Assembly: GCA_017471925.1 (NCBI GenBank)
Contig: JAFURM010000032.1
Span: forward strand, 1 to 64,000
Length of the DNA stretch: 64,000 bases
From: Bacteroides sp.
Lineage (GTDB): Bacteria > Bacteroidota > Bacteroidia > Bacteroidales > Bacteroidaceae
Reading direction: 5' to 3'
The notes beneath the pieces are model-generated. The model saw nothing but the letters and a program-made list of their open reading frames with translations, did no database searches and was not told where the DNA came from. Position 1 is the stretch's first letter, and every line of letters starts with the position of its first letter. Positions 2,420-39,754 of this stretch are shown here, in pieces. Position numbers and translations under genes: made by a program.

Positions 2420-2451
2420 TTTGTTTCTTTCAAAGATAAGCTATACTTTTG
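2420..2451 (+). promoter_or_regulatory. Bacteroidales housekeeping promoter of the his operon
   Basis: A -33 box TTTG (2420-2423) is followed after exactly 20 bp by a -7 box TACTTTTG (2444-2451), matching the TTTG/TAnnTTTG consensus of the Bacteroidales primary sigma factor. Transcription would start near 2458, about 15 nt before the leader peptide ATG at 2473. Confidence 0.8.
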
Positions 2452-2472
2452 TCGCGTAAAACAGAAAGAAAT

Positions 2473-2523
2473 ATGAACCGTAACATGACCCATCATCACC
2501 ATCATCATCACTCCGGCGAATAA
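2473..2523 (+). CDS. hisL: His operon leader peptide (7 consecutive His codons)
   Basis: A 16-codon ORF reads MNRNMTHHHHHHHSGE then TAA. Codons 7-13 (2491-2511) are seven consecutive His codons. It sits between a consensus promoter (2420-2451) and a hairpin terminator (2583-2620) that precedes hisG. This is the architecture of transcription attenuation: when charged tRNA-His is scarce the ribosome stalls on the His run, and this should favour an antiterminator. A candidate antiterminator is GGCGAG at 2532-2537 pairing with CTTGCC at 2588-2593, the left arm of the terminator. A ribosome resting at the stop codon would reach about 2535 and mask it; a ribosome stalled within the His run would leave it free. 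The peptide and promoter are directly visible; the pairing is inferred. Confidence 0.88.
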   Translation: MNRNMTHHHHHHHSGE

Positions 2524-2582
2524 TTCGGGTGGGCGAGGTTGTGCATGTGTATGTTGTGGACACAATATAGAAACATAAACAG

Positions 2583-2620
2583 AGGGGCTTGCCGATGAAC
2601 ATTGGCAAGCCTTTCCGTTT
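2583..2620 (+). terminator. His operon attenuator terminator
   Basis: GGCTTGCC (2586-2593) pairs perfectly with GGCAAGCC (2604-2611) around a 10-nt loop, can be extended outward by two G-U pairs and one A-U pair, and runs into TTTCCGTTTT. It ends 20 nt before the hisG ATG, so it would prevent transcription of the structural genes unless its left arm is captured by the upstream GGCGAG segment. Confidence 0.82.
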
Positions 2621-2640
2621 TCAAACAAAAACATAAAAGT

Positions 2641-3498
2641 ATGACTCTATTGAGAATTGCAGTACAAGCCAAAGGACGCCTCTATGAAGAGACCATGTCG
2701 TTTCTGGAAGAGGCCGACATCAAACTGAGTGCCACCAAGCGCACCCTGCTGGTGCAGTCGCCCAACTTTCCCATCGAAGTGCTCTTCTTGCGCGACGACG
2801 ACATTCCCCAGACCGTGGCCACCGGCGTGGCCGACATCGGCATAGTGGGCGAGAACGAGTTTGTGGAGAGGGGCGAAGATGCCGCCATCGTGAAACGCCT
2901 GGGATTCAGCAAGTGCCGCCTGTCGCTGGCACTCCCCAAGGATATCGACTATCCCGGCGTGCAGTGGTTTGAGGGCAAGAAGATTGCCACTTCCTATCCC
3001 GGCATCCTCTCCACCTACCTGAAGGAGCAGGGCGTGAAGGCCGAGATACACGTGATTACCGGCTCGGTAGAGGTGTCGCCCGGCATCGGCCTGGCCGACG
3101 CCATCTTCGACATTGTCAGCTCGGGCTCCACTCTGGTGAGCAACCGTCTGAAAGAGGTGGAGGTGGTGATGAACTCCGAGGCCCTGCTGATAGGCAACAA
3201 GCAGCTGTCGGACGAGAAGCAGGAAATCCTGAACGAACTGCTCTTCCGCATGGATGCCGTGAAGAGTGCCGAAGACAAGAAATATGTGCTGATGAATGTC
3301 CCCAAGGGAAAGCTGGAGGAGATTATAGCCGTGCTGCCGGGCATGAAGAGCCCCACCATCATGCCGCTGGCACAAGAAGGGTGGTGCTCCGTCCACACCG
3401 TGCTCGACGAGAAGTGCTTCTGGGAAATCATCGGCAAGCTGAAGGCTTTGGGGGCTGAGGGCATCCTGGTGCTCCCCATCGAGAAGATGATTGTCTGA
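2641..3498 (+). CDS. hisG: ATP phosphoribosyltransferase, long form
   Basis: Catalyses the first, committed step of histidine synthesis (ATP plus PRPP to phosphoribosyl-ATP). The 285 residues are the long form: a two-lobed periplasmic-binding-protein-like catalytic part with the PRPP loop region VEVSPGIGLADAIFDIVSSG near residues 150-170, and a C-terminal ACT-like regulatory domain from about residue 210 (KYVLMNVPKGKLEEI) that binds histidine for feedback inhibition. The start at 2641 matches the family N-terminus (LLRIAVQAKGRL); the open frame extends 39 nt upstream into the attenuator and is not expected to be translated. It is first in hisG-hisD-hisC-hisB, 49 nt before hisD. No Shine-Dalgarno is visible (AAACATAAAAGT before ATG), as is normal for this group. 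Confidence 0.96.
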   Translation: MTLLRIAVQAKGRLYEETMSFLEEADIKLSATKRTLLVQSPNFPIEVLFLRDDDIPQTVATGVADIGIVGENEFVERGEDAAIVKRLGFSKCRLSLALPKDIDYPGVQWFEGKKIATSYPGILSTYLKEQGVKAEIHVITGSVEVSPGIGLADAIFDIVSSGSTLVSNRLKEVEVVMNSEALLIGNKQLSDEKQEILNELLFRMDAVKSAEDKKYVLMNVPKGKLEEIIAVLPGMKSPTIMPLAQEGWCSVHTVLDEKCFWEIIGKLKALGAEGILVLPIEKMIV

Positions 3499-3547: not shown

Positions 3548-4834
3548 ATGATACTGATTGACAATCCCCACAAGTCCCAATGGGCAGCCCTGCTGCAGCG
3601 TCCGCTGTTAGAGACGGAGAAACTCTTCGGCACCGTACAGGGCATTATAGACCGCGTCAAGGCCGAAGGCGACCGAGCCGTGCTGGAGATGGAAGAGAAG
3701 TTCGACCACGTGAAGCTCTCCGGCCTGCGGGTCAGTGACGAGGAACTGGCCGAGGCCGAAACCCTCATCAGCCGGGAACTGAAGGAAGCCATCCTGCTGG
3801 CCAAGCAGAACATAGAGACTTTCCATGCCGCCCAGCGCTTTGAGGGTAGGAGAGTGACCACCCAGGAAGGCGTGTGCTGCTGGCAGAAGGCCGTAGCCAT
3901 AGAAAAGGTGGGCCTCTATATCCCCGGTGGTACGGCGCCGCTCTTCTCCACCGTGCTGATGCTGGCATTGCCCGCCAAGATTGCCGGCTGCAAGGAAATC
4001 GTGCTTTGCACCCCTCCGGGACGCAACGGGAAGATTCACCCCGCCGTGGCCTTTGCCGCCAAGGTGGCCGGTGTCAGCCTGGTCTTCAAGGCCGGTGGTG
4101 TGCAGGCCATCGCCGCCATGGCTTATGGCACGCAAAGCATCCCCAAAGTCTACAAGATATTCGGCCCCGGCAACCAGTATGTCACGGCTGCCAAGCAGCT
4201 CGTCAGCCTGCGCGATGTGGCCATCGATATGCCGGCCGGCCCGTCGGAAGTGGAAGTCCTGGCCGATGCCACGGCCAATCCCGCCTTTGTGGCGGCCGAC
4301 CTCTTGAGCCAGGCCGAGCATGGGGTGGACAGTCAGGCCGTGCTGATTACCACTTCTGCGGCCCTGCAGCAGCAGGTGAAGGAGGAGGTGGAACGCCAGT
4401 TGGCCCGCCTGCCGCGCAAGGAGATTGCCGAGAAGTCATTGGCCAACAGCAAACTGATTGTGGTGGCCGACATGGAAGAGGCCATAGAGATGACCAATGC
4501 CTATGCTCCCGAACACCTGATTATAGAGACGGCCGACTACCTCAGCGTGGCAGAGCGGGTGGTGAATGCCGGCTCCGTCTTCCTGGGGTCGCTCACGCCC
4601 GAGAGTGCCGGCGACTATGCCTCGGGCACTAACCACACCCTGCCCACCAACGGCTATGCCAAGGCATACAGCGGTGTCAGCTTAGACAGCTTCATACGCA
4701 AGATAACCTTCCAGGAAATCAAACCCGAAGGCCTACGGAAGATAGGCCCCGCCATTGAAATCATGGCCGCCAACGAGCAGTTGGATGCCCATAAGAATGC
4801 AGTAACCGTGAGATTAAAGGAGATTGGACAATGA
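3548..4834 (+). CDS. hisD: Histidinol dehydrogenase
   Basis: Zinc-dependent NAD+ enzyme that oxidises L-histidinol twice to histidine, the last step of the pathway. The 428 residues are normal for the family. Visible signatures are [20 protein letters not shown] (about 120-140), [17 protein letters not shown] (about 210), [13 protein letters not shown] (about 230), the zinc/catalytic segment [12 protein letters not shown] (about 255-265) and [20 protein letters not shown] near residue 350, which carries conserved zinc and substrate ligands. The 3' end overlaps the hisC start by 4 nt (ATGA at 4831-4834), so the two are translationally coupled. Confidence 0.97.
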
Positions 4835-5874
4835 AAAAGAGCCTGAAACAACTGACGCGCCCCAACGTGTGGCGCCTGAAGCCTTACTCCTCGGCACGCG
4901 ACGAATACAAGGGAGTGACGGCCTCCGTCTTCCTCGATGCCAACGAGAACCCCTATAACGCCCCCTTCAACCGCTATCCCGACCCGCTGCAGGAGAGCGT
5001 AAAGGCAAAGCTCAGCCGGATAAAGGGAGTACCCGCCGACCGCATTTTCTTAGGCAATGGAAGCGATGAGGCCATCGACCTCGTGTTCAGGGCCTTCTGT
5101 GAACCGAGGGTGGACAATGTGGTGGCCATTGACCCCACTTACGGCATGTATCAGGTGTGTGCCGAGGTGAACGACGTGGAGTATCGCAAGGTGTTGCTTG
5201 ACGAACATTTCCAGGTTACGGCCGAGCGACTGCTGGCCGCCACCGATGCCCACACCAAGGCCATCTTCCTCTGTTCGCCCAACAATCCTACGGGCAACGA
5301 CCTCTCCCGCAAGGAGATGGAACGCCTGTTGCAGGAGTTCGACGGCCTTATCGTCATGGACGAGGCCTACAATGACTTCTCGGAAGCCCCCTCCTTCACC
5401 CAAGAGCTGGAGCGATACCCCAACATCATCGTCCTGCAGACCTTCTCCAAGGCCTGGGGATGTGCGGCCATACGCCTCGGCATGGCTTTCGCCTCGGCCG
5501 ACATCATTGCCATCTTCAATAAAATCAAGTACCCCTACAACGTCAATCTCCTGACCCAAAGGCAGGCATTGGAGATGTTGGAGGAGTATGACCGCATCGG
5601 GCAATGGATTGACACGCTGAAGGAAGAGCGCACCCGCCTCCTTGAACGCTTTGCCCAACTGCCCTGCACCCTGCGGATATTTGACACGGCGGCCAACTTC
5701 TTCCTGGCCCGCATGACGGACGCCCCACGCATCTATAACTACTTAGTGGGAGAGGGCATCATCGTGCGCAACCGCCACAATGTCTCCCTCTGTGCCAACT
5801 GCCTGCGGGTGACCATCGGTACGCCCGACGAAAACCGTGAACTGCTCAGGGCATTGGAAGCCTATAAAGAATAA
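4831..5874 (+). CDS. hisC: Histidinol-phosphate aminotransferase
   Basis: PLP enzyme converting imidazole-acetol phosphate plus glutamate to histidinol phosphate. The 347-residue class I/II aminotransferase fold shows the substrate-arm motif LDANENPYN (residues 35-43), SPNNPTGN at 149-156, the PLP-nitrogen Asp in VMDEAY (Asp177), the Schiff-base lysine in TFSKAWG (Lys207) and the phosphate-binding Arg region AAIRLGMAF. The start overlaps the hisD stop by 4 nt. hisB follows 35 nt later in the same direction. Confidence 0.96.
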
Positions 5875-5909: not shown

Positions 5910-7061
5910 ATGAGCAAAAAAGTCTTATTCATCGATCGCGACGGAACACTCGTCATAGAACCTCCCATTGACTATCAGCTGGACTCCTTAGAAAAGCTGG
6001 AGTTCTATCCCAAGGTGATGCGCAACCTGGGATTCATCCGCAGCAAGCTGGACTTTGAGTTTGTCATGGTCACCAATCAGGACGGCTTAGGCACGGCTGC
6101 CTTCCCCGAAGACACCTTCTGGCCCGCCCACAACCTGATGATGAAGACCTTGGAAGGCGAAGGCGTCACGTTCGATGCCGTCTGCATTGACCGCAGCATG
6201 CCCGAGGACAATGCGCCCACACGCAAGCCACGCACAGGCATGCTTGCCCGTTACATGGATAATCCCGACTATGACCTGAAGAACAGCTTCGTCATCGGCG
6301 ACCGTGCCACCGATGTGGAGCTGGCCAGGAACCTGGGCTGTCGTGCCATCCTGCTGCAGGACGACATGACCTCCTTGCGTCCTCTCGCTCAGGGAGGGAA
6401 AGCCTCCTGTGAGGGGCTTCCGGAGGTGTGTGCCCTGGCCACCAAGGATTGGGACAAGGTGGCGGAGTTCCTCTTTGCCGGCGAAAGGAAGGCCGAAGTG
6501 CGTCGCACCACCAAGGAGACCGATATTCAGGTGGCCGTCAATCTGGATGGCAACGGCCATTGTGACATCCATACGGGGTTGGGCTTTTTCGACCACATGT
6601 TGGAGCAGATTGGCAAGCACGGCGGCATGGATCTCACCATCCGTGTGGAGGGAGACCTCTACGTGGACGAGCACCATACGATAGAGGATACGGCACTTGC
6701 CCTGGGCGAATGTCTGCTTCAGGCCTTGGGCAGCAAGCGCGGCATTGAGCGTTATGGCTATTGCCTGCCCATGGACGATTGCCTCTGCCAGGTTTGCCTG
6801 GATTTCGGTGGCCGCCCCTGGCTGGTGTGGGATGCCCGTTTCCGTCGCGAGAAGATAGGCGAAATGCCCACGGAGATGTTCCTGCATTTCTTCAAGTCTC
6901 TCAGCGATGCTGCCAGGATGAACCTGAACATCAAGGCTGAAGGCGAGAATGAGCATCACAAGATAGAAGGCATATTCAAAGCCTTGGCCCGTGCCCTGAA
7001 GATGGCGGTGAAGCGCGACATCTATCACTATGAACTCCCCAGCTCTAAAGGGGTGTTGTAG
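5910..7061 (+). CDS. hisB: Bifunctional histidinol-phosphatase / imidazoleglycerol-phosphate dehydratase
   Basis: Fusion enzyme carrying pathway steps 7 and 9. Residues 1 to about 170 are a HAD phosphatase with the nucleophile and acid/base Asp in FIDRDGTLV (Asp9, Asp11), a thiol-free insertion typical of the HisB-N family, and [12 protein letters not shown] near residue 135. From about residue 190 ([17 protein letters not shown]) the IGP dehydratase follows, with its two manganese-binding His motifs, [16 protein letters not shown] and [14 protein letters not shown], plus the second pseudo-repeat [12 protein letters not shown] and [18 protein letters not shown]. This is the last his gene in the window; hisA, hisF, hisH and hisIE are not here. 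No clear terminator follows before the promoter at 7091. Confidence 0.97.
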
Positions 7062-7090: not shown

Positions 7091-7122
7091 TTTGGACGTT
7101 TGCTGCAAATCATCTATATTTG
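7091..7122 (+). promoter_or_regulatory. Strong consensus promoter for a small-ORF transcript
   Basis: TTTG at 7091-7094, a 20-bp spacer and TATATTTG at 7115-7122 match the Bacteroidales promoter consensus perfectly. Transcription from about 7129 would cover the 22-codon ORF, the long hairpin and the 49-codon ORF downstream. This separates these tiny genes from the his operon. Confidence 0.78.
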
Positions 7123-7216: not shown

Positions 7217-7231
7217 CGGAACGGACGTGGA

Positions 7232-7284
7232 GCACACAGCCCCGGCGTGCAAGGAGATGGGCCTTGCACGTCGGGGCTGTGTGC
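7232..7284 (+). repeat. Long near-perfect stem-loop (23-bp stem, 7-nt loop)
   Basis: The left arm 7232-7254 (begins GCACACAGCCCCGG) pairs with the right arm 7262-7284 (ends CGGGGCTGTGTGC) over 23 bp, with a single G-U pair, around the loop AGATGGG. No T-run follows on the plus strand, so it is not an ordinary terminator. It sits in the presumed 5' leader of the 49-codon ORF at 7375 and could be an RNA-stability or regulatory hairpin. Confidence 0.75.
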
Positions 7285-7374
7285 GTAATGCCCGCTCTGT
7301 CAGACTGTGTGCGAAGCGGCTATCCGCGCGACACTTATCCTGAATATCAATATTAACCCCAAATATAAAAGAGT

Positions 7375-7524: not shown

Positions 7525-7711
7525 GAAAGAGAGCATCCGAAGTCAAGAGGTAGGAGGAGAACGAGACTGCGCTCATCTTTCAGTATTTCAGAATCGTATG
7601 CCATGTTCATCCTTCTTTGTCGCGGGCAAATATATTAGAAAAATATTACAAACATATTTAAAAAACGGGAAAGATGCAAATCTTGCCCGAAAAACATGCC
7701 ACAATATGCGT

Positions 7712-7899
7712 TGAAATGCCCCGCCAATGTCCGCCGAAGTGCTCAGCGGCTCAGCACTCAAGTGTTCAGCCGCTGAACGGTTGTGGTGCTCAGCTAATGA
7801 GCGGTCATATAGCTCAGCCGCTGAGCACTCGAGTGTTCAGCGGCTTAACACTGAGGTGCTCAGCGGCTGAGCACTTGGACAGTGTAAAGATTTGCGCGA
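7712..7899 (+). repeat. Palindrome-rich intergenic element, copy 1
   Basis: About six degenerate copies of a palindromic unit (GTGCTCAGCGGCTGAGCAC) are packed in 7739-7876, flanked by two different edge motifs: GGCGG-ACATT-GGCG read outward on the left, and CAGTGTAAAGATTTGCGCG on the right. A second copy at 40029-40184 has the same edges in the opposite order, so the two are inverted relative to each other. It contains no credible ORF. Upstream, 7525-7711 is AT-rich and shows no gene I can support. Confidence 0.75.
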
Positions 7900-39722: not shown

Positions 39723-39754
39723 CAAAGGTAGTGCAAATCGCGTGCAGAAGCAAA
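39723..39754 (-). promoter_or_regulatory. Consensus housekeeping promoter of the regulator-kinase operon
   Basis: On the minus strand, TTTG (39754-39751), a 20-bp spacer and TACCTTTG (39730-39723) match the Bacteroidales consensus exactly. Transcription would start about 30 nt before the regulator ATG at 39686. Confidence 0.78.

Follow-up and report, generated by a model that had tools for sequence, protein, structure and literature searches.

The DNA upstream of hisG in this Bacteroides genome raises the question of whether transcription of the histidine operon hisGDCB is controlled by a ribosome that translates a short His-rich leader. Most work on textbook attenuation has been done in Proteobacteria. 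A first-pass annotation had read the region as a complete ribosome-mediated his attenuator. Judged from sequence comparison, we put the probability that hisGDCB is controlled by a ribosome-mediated transcription attenuator at roughly 90%. The reading is supported by a His-codon run conserved in relatives, a conserved pairing that captures the left arm of the terminator, and a geometry that fits.

The window (the whole stretch of DNA that was analysed, 64 kb) comes from a 2.87-Mb genome that is split over 59 contigs. The parts of the his region are all on the forward strand. The first structural gene, hisG (2641–3498; TIGR00070), is followed by hisD (3548–4834), hisC (4831–5874) and a bifunctional hisB (5910–7061). 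Among the best 80 of 578 named relatives, the nearest hisG sequences were those of Candidatus Bacteroides merdavium (93%) and Caecibacteroides pullorum (92%), the latter a member of the Bacteroidaceae.

A Bacteroides-type promoter was predicted at 2420–2451, with TTTG at −33 and TAnnTTTG at −7 (TACTTTTG, 2444–2451). The pattern TTTG-N20-TAnnTTTG, which we take to be the Bacteroides promoter consensus, occurred at 4 sites in the 64-kb window versus 0.19 expected. The other matches were at 7091–7122 (+), 7649–7680 (−) and 39723–39754 (−). The leader ORF comprises 16 codons (2473–2523; MNRNMTHHHHHHHSGE, followed by the stop UAA at 2521–2523). It contains seven consecutive His codons (2491–2511), the presumed sensor, and a codon-run search of the window found this run exactly once. 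Allowing up to three mismatches gave eight matches in the window (three of them overlapping at the leader site) versus 0.15 expected. The first His lies six codons after the leader start, as it does in many relatives. Next come a small hairpin predicted by folding (2550–2569) and an intrinsic terminator hairpin of 15 bp (2582–2615), with its left arm at 2582–2596, its loop at 2597–2600 and its right arm at 2601–2615. The terminator call is based on the predicted fold and on covariation of the stem in relatives. Promoter, seven-His leader, terminator hairpin and hisG were all found where the first-pass annotation had placed them.

Conservation was assessed in several sets of loci. The close set comprised 81 loci (the best 80 of 578 named hisG relatives and the window), and the family set 86 loci from 85 genomes. 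The order set covered 72 of 73 genomes, leaving out the one whose hisG was split into two fragments, and the class set 77 of 81 (two with fragmented hisG and two others were left out). Genomes of the family, order and class sets were drawn evenly, and 46 of 95 hisG-bearing genomes from outside the class were chosen by hand to spread over families. The family, order, class and outside sets share some species with the named loci. The retrieved stretches were mostly oriented manually according to the strand column. We called an ORF a leader if it was no longer than 40 codons, had four or more His in seven codons and lay no more than 300 nt from hisG; a looser criterion required at least three His. 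Counts for several sets are given in the order close, family, order and class.

A leader with at least four His preceded hisG in 68/81, 45/86, 53/72 and 59/77 loci, so the His-codon run on which the earlier reading relied is kept in relatives. Shuffled sequences gave 0.1, 0.2, 0.0 and 0.2, and the reverse strand 0, 0, 1 and 0. With at least three His, the counts were 73/81, 53/86, 59/72 and 67/77 (shuffles: 1.1, 2.8, 1.5 and 2.6; reverse strand: 13, 3, 4 and 6), and 8/81, 33/86, 13/72 and 10/77 loci were free of a leader by this criterion. Outside the class, 17 of the 46 loci had at least four His and 20 had at least three (reverse strand: 1); these leaders were limited to some families. The His-sensing leader switch thus appears to be widespread, though not universal, in related bacteria. 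The 70 nt 5′ of the leader contained the motif TAnnTTTG in 71/71, 46/52, 38/55 and 45/59 loci, compared with 4.5–10% of shuffles over the four sets (7.4% in the close set). Shine-Dalgarno-like four-mers 5′ of the leader were not above shuffles (4/73, 0/53, 3/57 and 0/67). In one locus (L023), the His leader ORF is shifted upstream of hisG (about −377), and a stretch rich in repeated words lies between terminator and hisG.

The region 2521–2620 folded much better than shuffles (z −4.5). The U-rich tail of the terminator (2612–2621, UUUCCGUUUU) is imperfect in the window; a simple terminator scan missed it, and a scan that searched a few positions for a T-rich tail found it. One and the same hairpin scan was applied to all loci. 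In leader-bearing loci, a terminator-like hairpin was found in 71/73, 52/53, 56/59 and 58/67 cases (shuffles: 4.6, 1.6, 2.2 and 3.4). In leader-less loci, the counts were 4/8, 9/33, 2/13 and 5/10 (shuffles: 0.0, 1.0, 0.2 and 1.6), and those of the family and order sets usually lacked the terminator too. By these hairpin counts with and without a leader, leader and terminator tend to co-occur, least clearly in the class set. The locus L065 shows a promoter-like motif directly followed by a terminator 5′ of hisG, with leader and antiterminator strand seemingly missing.

The imperfect tail and the failure of the simple scan could also mean that the hairpin acts on translation initiation of hisG or on mRNA stability and does not terminate transcription; only 25 nt separate it from the hisG start. 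We consider this improbable. Many hairpins of close loci end in tails like TTTTTATT, as found by a scan that itself required T-rich tails. Moreover, in loci with a leader the hairpin lies anywhere from 16 to 107 nt away from the hisG match, a spread ill-suited to start-site masking.

For an attenuator, a second structure would have to compete for the left arm of the terminator. The first-pass annotation had proposed that GGCGAG (2532–2537) pairs with CUUGCC (2588–2593; 6 bp, one G-U). The capture of the left arm stood up to comparison with relatives, but the register did not: the conserved pairing is shifted by four bases. It joins GGUGGGC (2528–2534), near the leader stop, to GCUUGCC (2587–2593), the part of the left arm common to antiterminator and terminator. 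The strand at 2528–2534 resembles the right arm of the terminator and can take its left arm. This was read from an alignment of 68 close loci (A1), from which 13 of the 81 were left out (leader or terminator uncalled, or duplicates). GGTRGGC occurred in 61 of the 68 rows, at +5 to +11 past the stop in the window, and GCTTRCC in 64. In 60 rows, the longer motif NCGGTRGGC stood at or just past where the leader stop usually lies, and it can form up to nine paired bases with the GCTTRCC strand. The window has one extra G before the GGUGGGC strand.

The two registers hardly differ in isolated duplex energy (−9.0 kcal/mol for 2528–2534:2587–2593 and −9.3 kcal/mol for 2532–2537:2588–2593), and a free duplex search in the window prefers the latter. 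In the window alone, the alternative duplex was not better than shuffles (p 0.265). The minimum-energy folds of RNA from 2524 to 2596, 2600 or 2604 all contained 2528–2534:2587–2593. An RNA starting at 2524 is thus predicted to form the antiterminator while the right arm is still to be transcribed. The A1 alignment and these partial-RNA folds rule out 2532–2537:2588–2593 as the conserved register; it is possible in the window.

An alignment check for covariation was positive for one of the two helices. The terminator stem covaries in relatives (none of 500 shuffles was as strong; A1). The antiterminator pairs were formed in 97.1% of cells within A1 and showed no covariation in excess of shuffles, the columns being nearly invariant. 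Hence, the covariation of the antiterminator derives from the wider sets. We used a partner-swap test, in which the energy of the antiterminator region with its own terminator arm was compared with that for arms of other species, centred for the strength of region and arm. Loci with more than 120 nt from the last His codon to the terminator, or with a segment that was too short, were dropped, and the tests per set also dropped duplicates. The z values were −3.6 (68 close loci), −4.1 (49 family), −9.5 (55 order) and −9.0 (57 class), and 1, 0, 0 and 0 of 5000 permutations, respectively, were as low. For 40 loci dereplicated from 237, z was −7.3, a value reached by 0 of 10,000 permutations; the own pair beat the median swap in 32 of the 40. 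The same test on a decoy region upstream of the leader gave z 0.3. This result indicates co-evolution of the two strands, in a sample where relatedness is reduced, not removed. The pairing that captures the left arm is conserved in relatives by both A1 and the swap test, four bases away from the register first proposed. Individually, the duplex reached p ≤0.05 in 61/71, 35/52, 29/56 and 35/58 loci, meaning that about half of the order-level loci are without a significant duplex of their own.

The leader residues besides His and the position of the stop drift among relatives, and the RNA motif is retained. The stop was displaced in 10 of the 68 A1 rows with the motif kept; in eight of these it lay inside the motif, and in L008 and L014 the motif is read as codons. 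A displaced stop with a retained motif suggests that selection acts on the RNA rather than on the peptide. This bears on the idea that ORF and hairpin are together by chance, or that the ORF encodes a functional His-rich peptide, for example a metal-binding one, as His runs bind metals. That idea is very hard to credit: besides the drift around a constant motif and the swap result for the dereplicated loci, the leader residues follow the operon. An ORF with at least four His was found in 113 of 167 upstream regions of hisG versus 0 of 75 regions 5′ of phe, trp, ilv, leu and thr genes.

The position of the strand fits control by a ribosome. The core of the pairing lay within −15 to +16 nt of the stop in 70/71 (window included), 40/52, 39/55 and 52/59 loci. 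It started at least 12 nt 3′ of the first His codon in all 237 loci (71/71 close). The footprint of a ribosome was taken as covering the strand from the stop, not from the early His run. The first-pass annotation had supposed that a ribosome at the stop codon masks the antiterminator and that one stalled in the His codons frees it, and the geometry of the close loci agrees with this. For the hisGDCB attenuator, the parts, their conservation, the co-evolution and the geometry are in this way supported at the level of sequence.

From these features we infer a mechanism, and with it where transcription starts, that the leader is translated, that ribosomes stall and RNA polymerase terminates, and that the system responds to histidine. 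Transcription would start shortly after 2451, and a ribosome would load on the 16-codon leader. With ample charged His-tRNA, it would reach the stop at 2521–2523, and its footprint would cover 2528–2534. The left arm (2582–2596) would then pair with the right arm (2601–2615), and RNA polymerase would terminate before hisG. Under a shortage of charged His-tRNA, the ribosome would stall in the His run and leave 2528–2534 free. This strand would pair with 2587–2593 before the right arm is made, no terminator would form, and hisG would be transcribed.

In the enterobacterial his leader, a ribosome on a His-codon leader peptide decides termination before hisG. The Bacteroides region shares with that leader (RF00514) the His-codon leader peptide, the terminator before hisG and, presumably, the decision by the ribosome. 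It may be closer still to the enterobacterial type, with an essential hairpin formed by the leader codons and the sequence past the stop, for a pause or for termination by default, beside antiterminator and terminator. The full-length minimum-energy fold pairs 2478–2516 with 2525–2559, which would hide 2528–2534 if no ribosome translates. Pairing on the codon side was significant (p ≤0.05) in 24/71, 25/52, 32/55 and 23/59 loci versus 5% expected; however, roughly half or more of the loci failed this test, among them the window (p 0.30). The antiterminator strand, moreover, pairs straight with the left arm of the terminator, with no intermediate segment, and the match to the Rfam model is weak. 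We regard an essential hairpin of this kind as rather unlikely, though worth keeping in mind. With 29.9 bits (E 0.091), below the gathering cut-off of 49, membership of the window in the Rfam family His_leader was rejected. No Rfam family was found at its gathering cut-off in the window or in 20 related loci, and the T-box model had no match at its cut-off in the same sequences.

The attenuator preferred here would work like a trp-type switch. The E. coli trp attenuator uses the segment pairs 1:2, 2:3 and 3:4. The hisG region likewise has two mutually exclusive helices that share the left arm of the terminator, with segment 2 at the leader stop, and the full-length fold of the window has a hairpin like 1:2. 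It differs from trp in that the leader of the window carries His and not Trp codons, and in that segment 2 closely resembles the right arm of the terminator.

Other amino-acid operons were surveyed in 20 relatives and the own genome (17 ilv, 15 phe, 15 trp, 15 thr and 13 leu loci; paralogues, fragments and loci with cut flanks were left out). Leaders matching the pathway were found before ilvD (17/17 loci), pheA (15/15) and trpB (12/15). A Phe/Tyr leader occurred in 15/15 phe regions versus 3/167 his and 1/15 thr regions, and a three-Trp leader in 10/15 trp regions versus 5/227 others. The criterion for Ile, Leu and Val leaders was loose: it applied to 17/17 ilv regions, and also to 24/167 his and 5/15 phe regions. 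Under a relaxed criterion, a Thr leader preceded the thrA-like aspartokinase gene in 8/15 loci. No consistent Leu leader was found before leuA; 4/13 loci passed a loose criterion, with unlike peptides (reverse strand: 2/13).

A strand mimicking the right arm of the terminator was significant in 16/17 ilv loci, where it lay at the stop codon or spanned it. It was also significant in 12/15 phe loci, and in 11 of these it fell within the coding tail around VEREF; here the segment was begun after the last Tyr codon, a choice made after a stop-region segment had given 1/15. For trp, leader and terminator were present in 12/15 loci, and no antiterminator reached p ≤0.05. In the own genome, the ilvD leader ORF (MNLHTVVNLTVVHIIRVVVVEPGA; L371, G000:C28) is followed by a terminator, and its right-arm mimic lies across the stop codon (GCGUGAGAAAGGUU with AGCCUUUCUCACG). 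Before the prephenate dehydratase gene pheA (L344, G000:C1), the leader ORF is MNLFAYAYYFFFYFYFSQRVEREFVCVK, and the VEREF coding tail holds a strand that pairs with the left arm of the terminator. On sequence, these predicted ilvD and pheA leaders show the same design as that of his. At the trpB locus (L382, G000:C57), the leader ORF MVHTFWWWRPLQLNES is accompanied by a strong terminator-like hairpin, and the antiterminator test gave no significant pairing. The thrA-like aspartokinase gene (L451, G000:C32) is preceded by the Thr-rich leader ORF MNRYTLYSVTTQWTTTTPRG.

We lean slightly towards the view that a strand mimicking the right arm at the leader end has long served the Bacteroidota as a general sensor of amino acids. 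The his version would be class-wide and present in some outside families, the ilv and phe versions would occur in relatives of Bacteroides, and leaders would also exist for trp and thr. If so, the leading ribosomes must closely follow RNA polymerase in this phylum, although the leaders lack Shine-Dalgarno-like enrichment.

The nearest published description concerns Flavobacteriaceae. In the transcriptome map of Flavobacterium psychrophilum, structured and transcribed 5′ elements without an Rfam hit are reported before hisG and pheA, and leader-peptide attenuation is described as strongly suggested for amino-acid operons (PMC9723704). These elements are from the same phylum and precede the same genes; they concern one family only, and the passages on them describe no antiterminator, His run or phylum-wide comparison. 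Ribosome-sensed leaders outside the Proteobacteria are reported from other phyla: leader peptides precede hisS/hisZ, and thus other genes, in Bacilli (PMC2965389), and are also reported before amino-acid operons of Actinobacteria (PMC1262725). As far as the authors of the Bacilli paper knew in 2010, Proteobacteria and Actinobacteria were the only groups with demonstrated leader-peptide systems, apart from ermC (PMC2965389). Short ORFs reminiscent of leader peptides are reported in B. thetaiotaomicron, in a paper whose main text does not contain the words "histidine" or "hisG" (PMC7366714). An article on the his genes of the superphylum mentions attenuation upstream of hisG in its general introduction only, and the word "leader" is absent from its text (PMC8305728). 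For leaders of gamma-proteobacterial hisG and of Clostridium/Bacillus hisZ, Lopatovskaya et al. 2010 is cited (PMC4833913). Among the papers turned up by searches of open-access literature, none was found to describe such an attenuator in Bacteroidales; the attenuation survey of Lopatovskaya et al. 2010 may list cases from Bacteroidetes.

As far as sequence can tell, the hisG attenuator is genuine. It is of a kind already known, leader-peptide attenuation, and the wider point is a design apparently shared across much of the Bacteroidota. Attenuation appears as a conserved layer of control of amino-acid synthesis in a major gut phylum, and Rfam leaves the his leader attenuator unannotated in the window and 20 related loci. 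The simple plan of leader, right-arm mimic and terminator could serve as the basis for an RNA-family model that annotates his, ilv and phe operons. The leaders may also offer in vivo probes of the coupling between transcription and translation in Bacteroidota.

Two further structures lie 3′ of hisB. An inverted repeat with arms of 36 nt (7219–7297) is possibly a structure at the operon end. Nested inverted repeats with arms of 42 nt, 86% complementary, are located at 7737–7876 and overlap weak matches to miRNA models.
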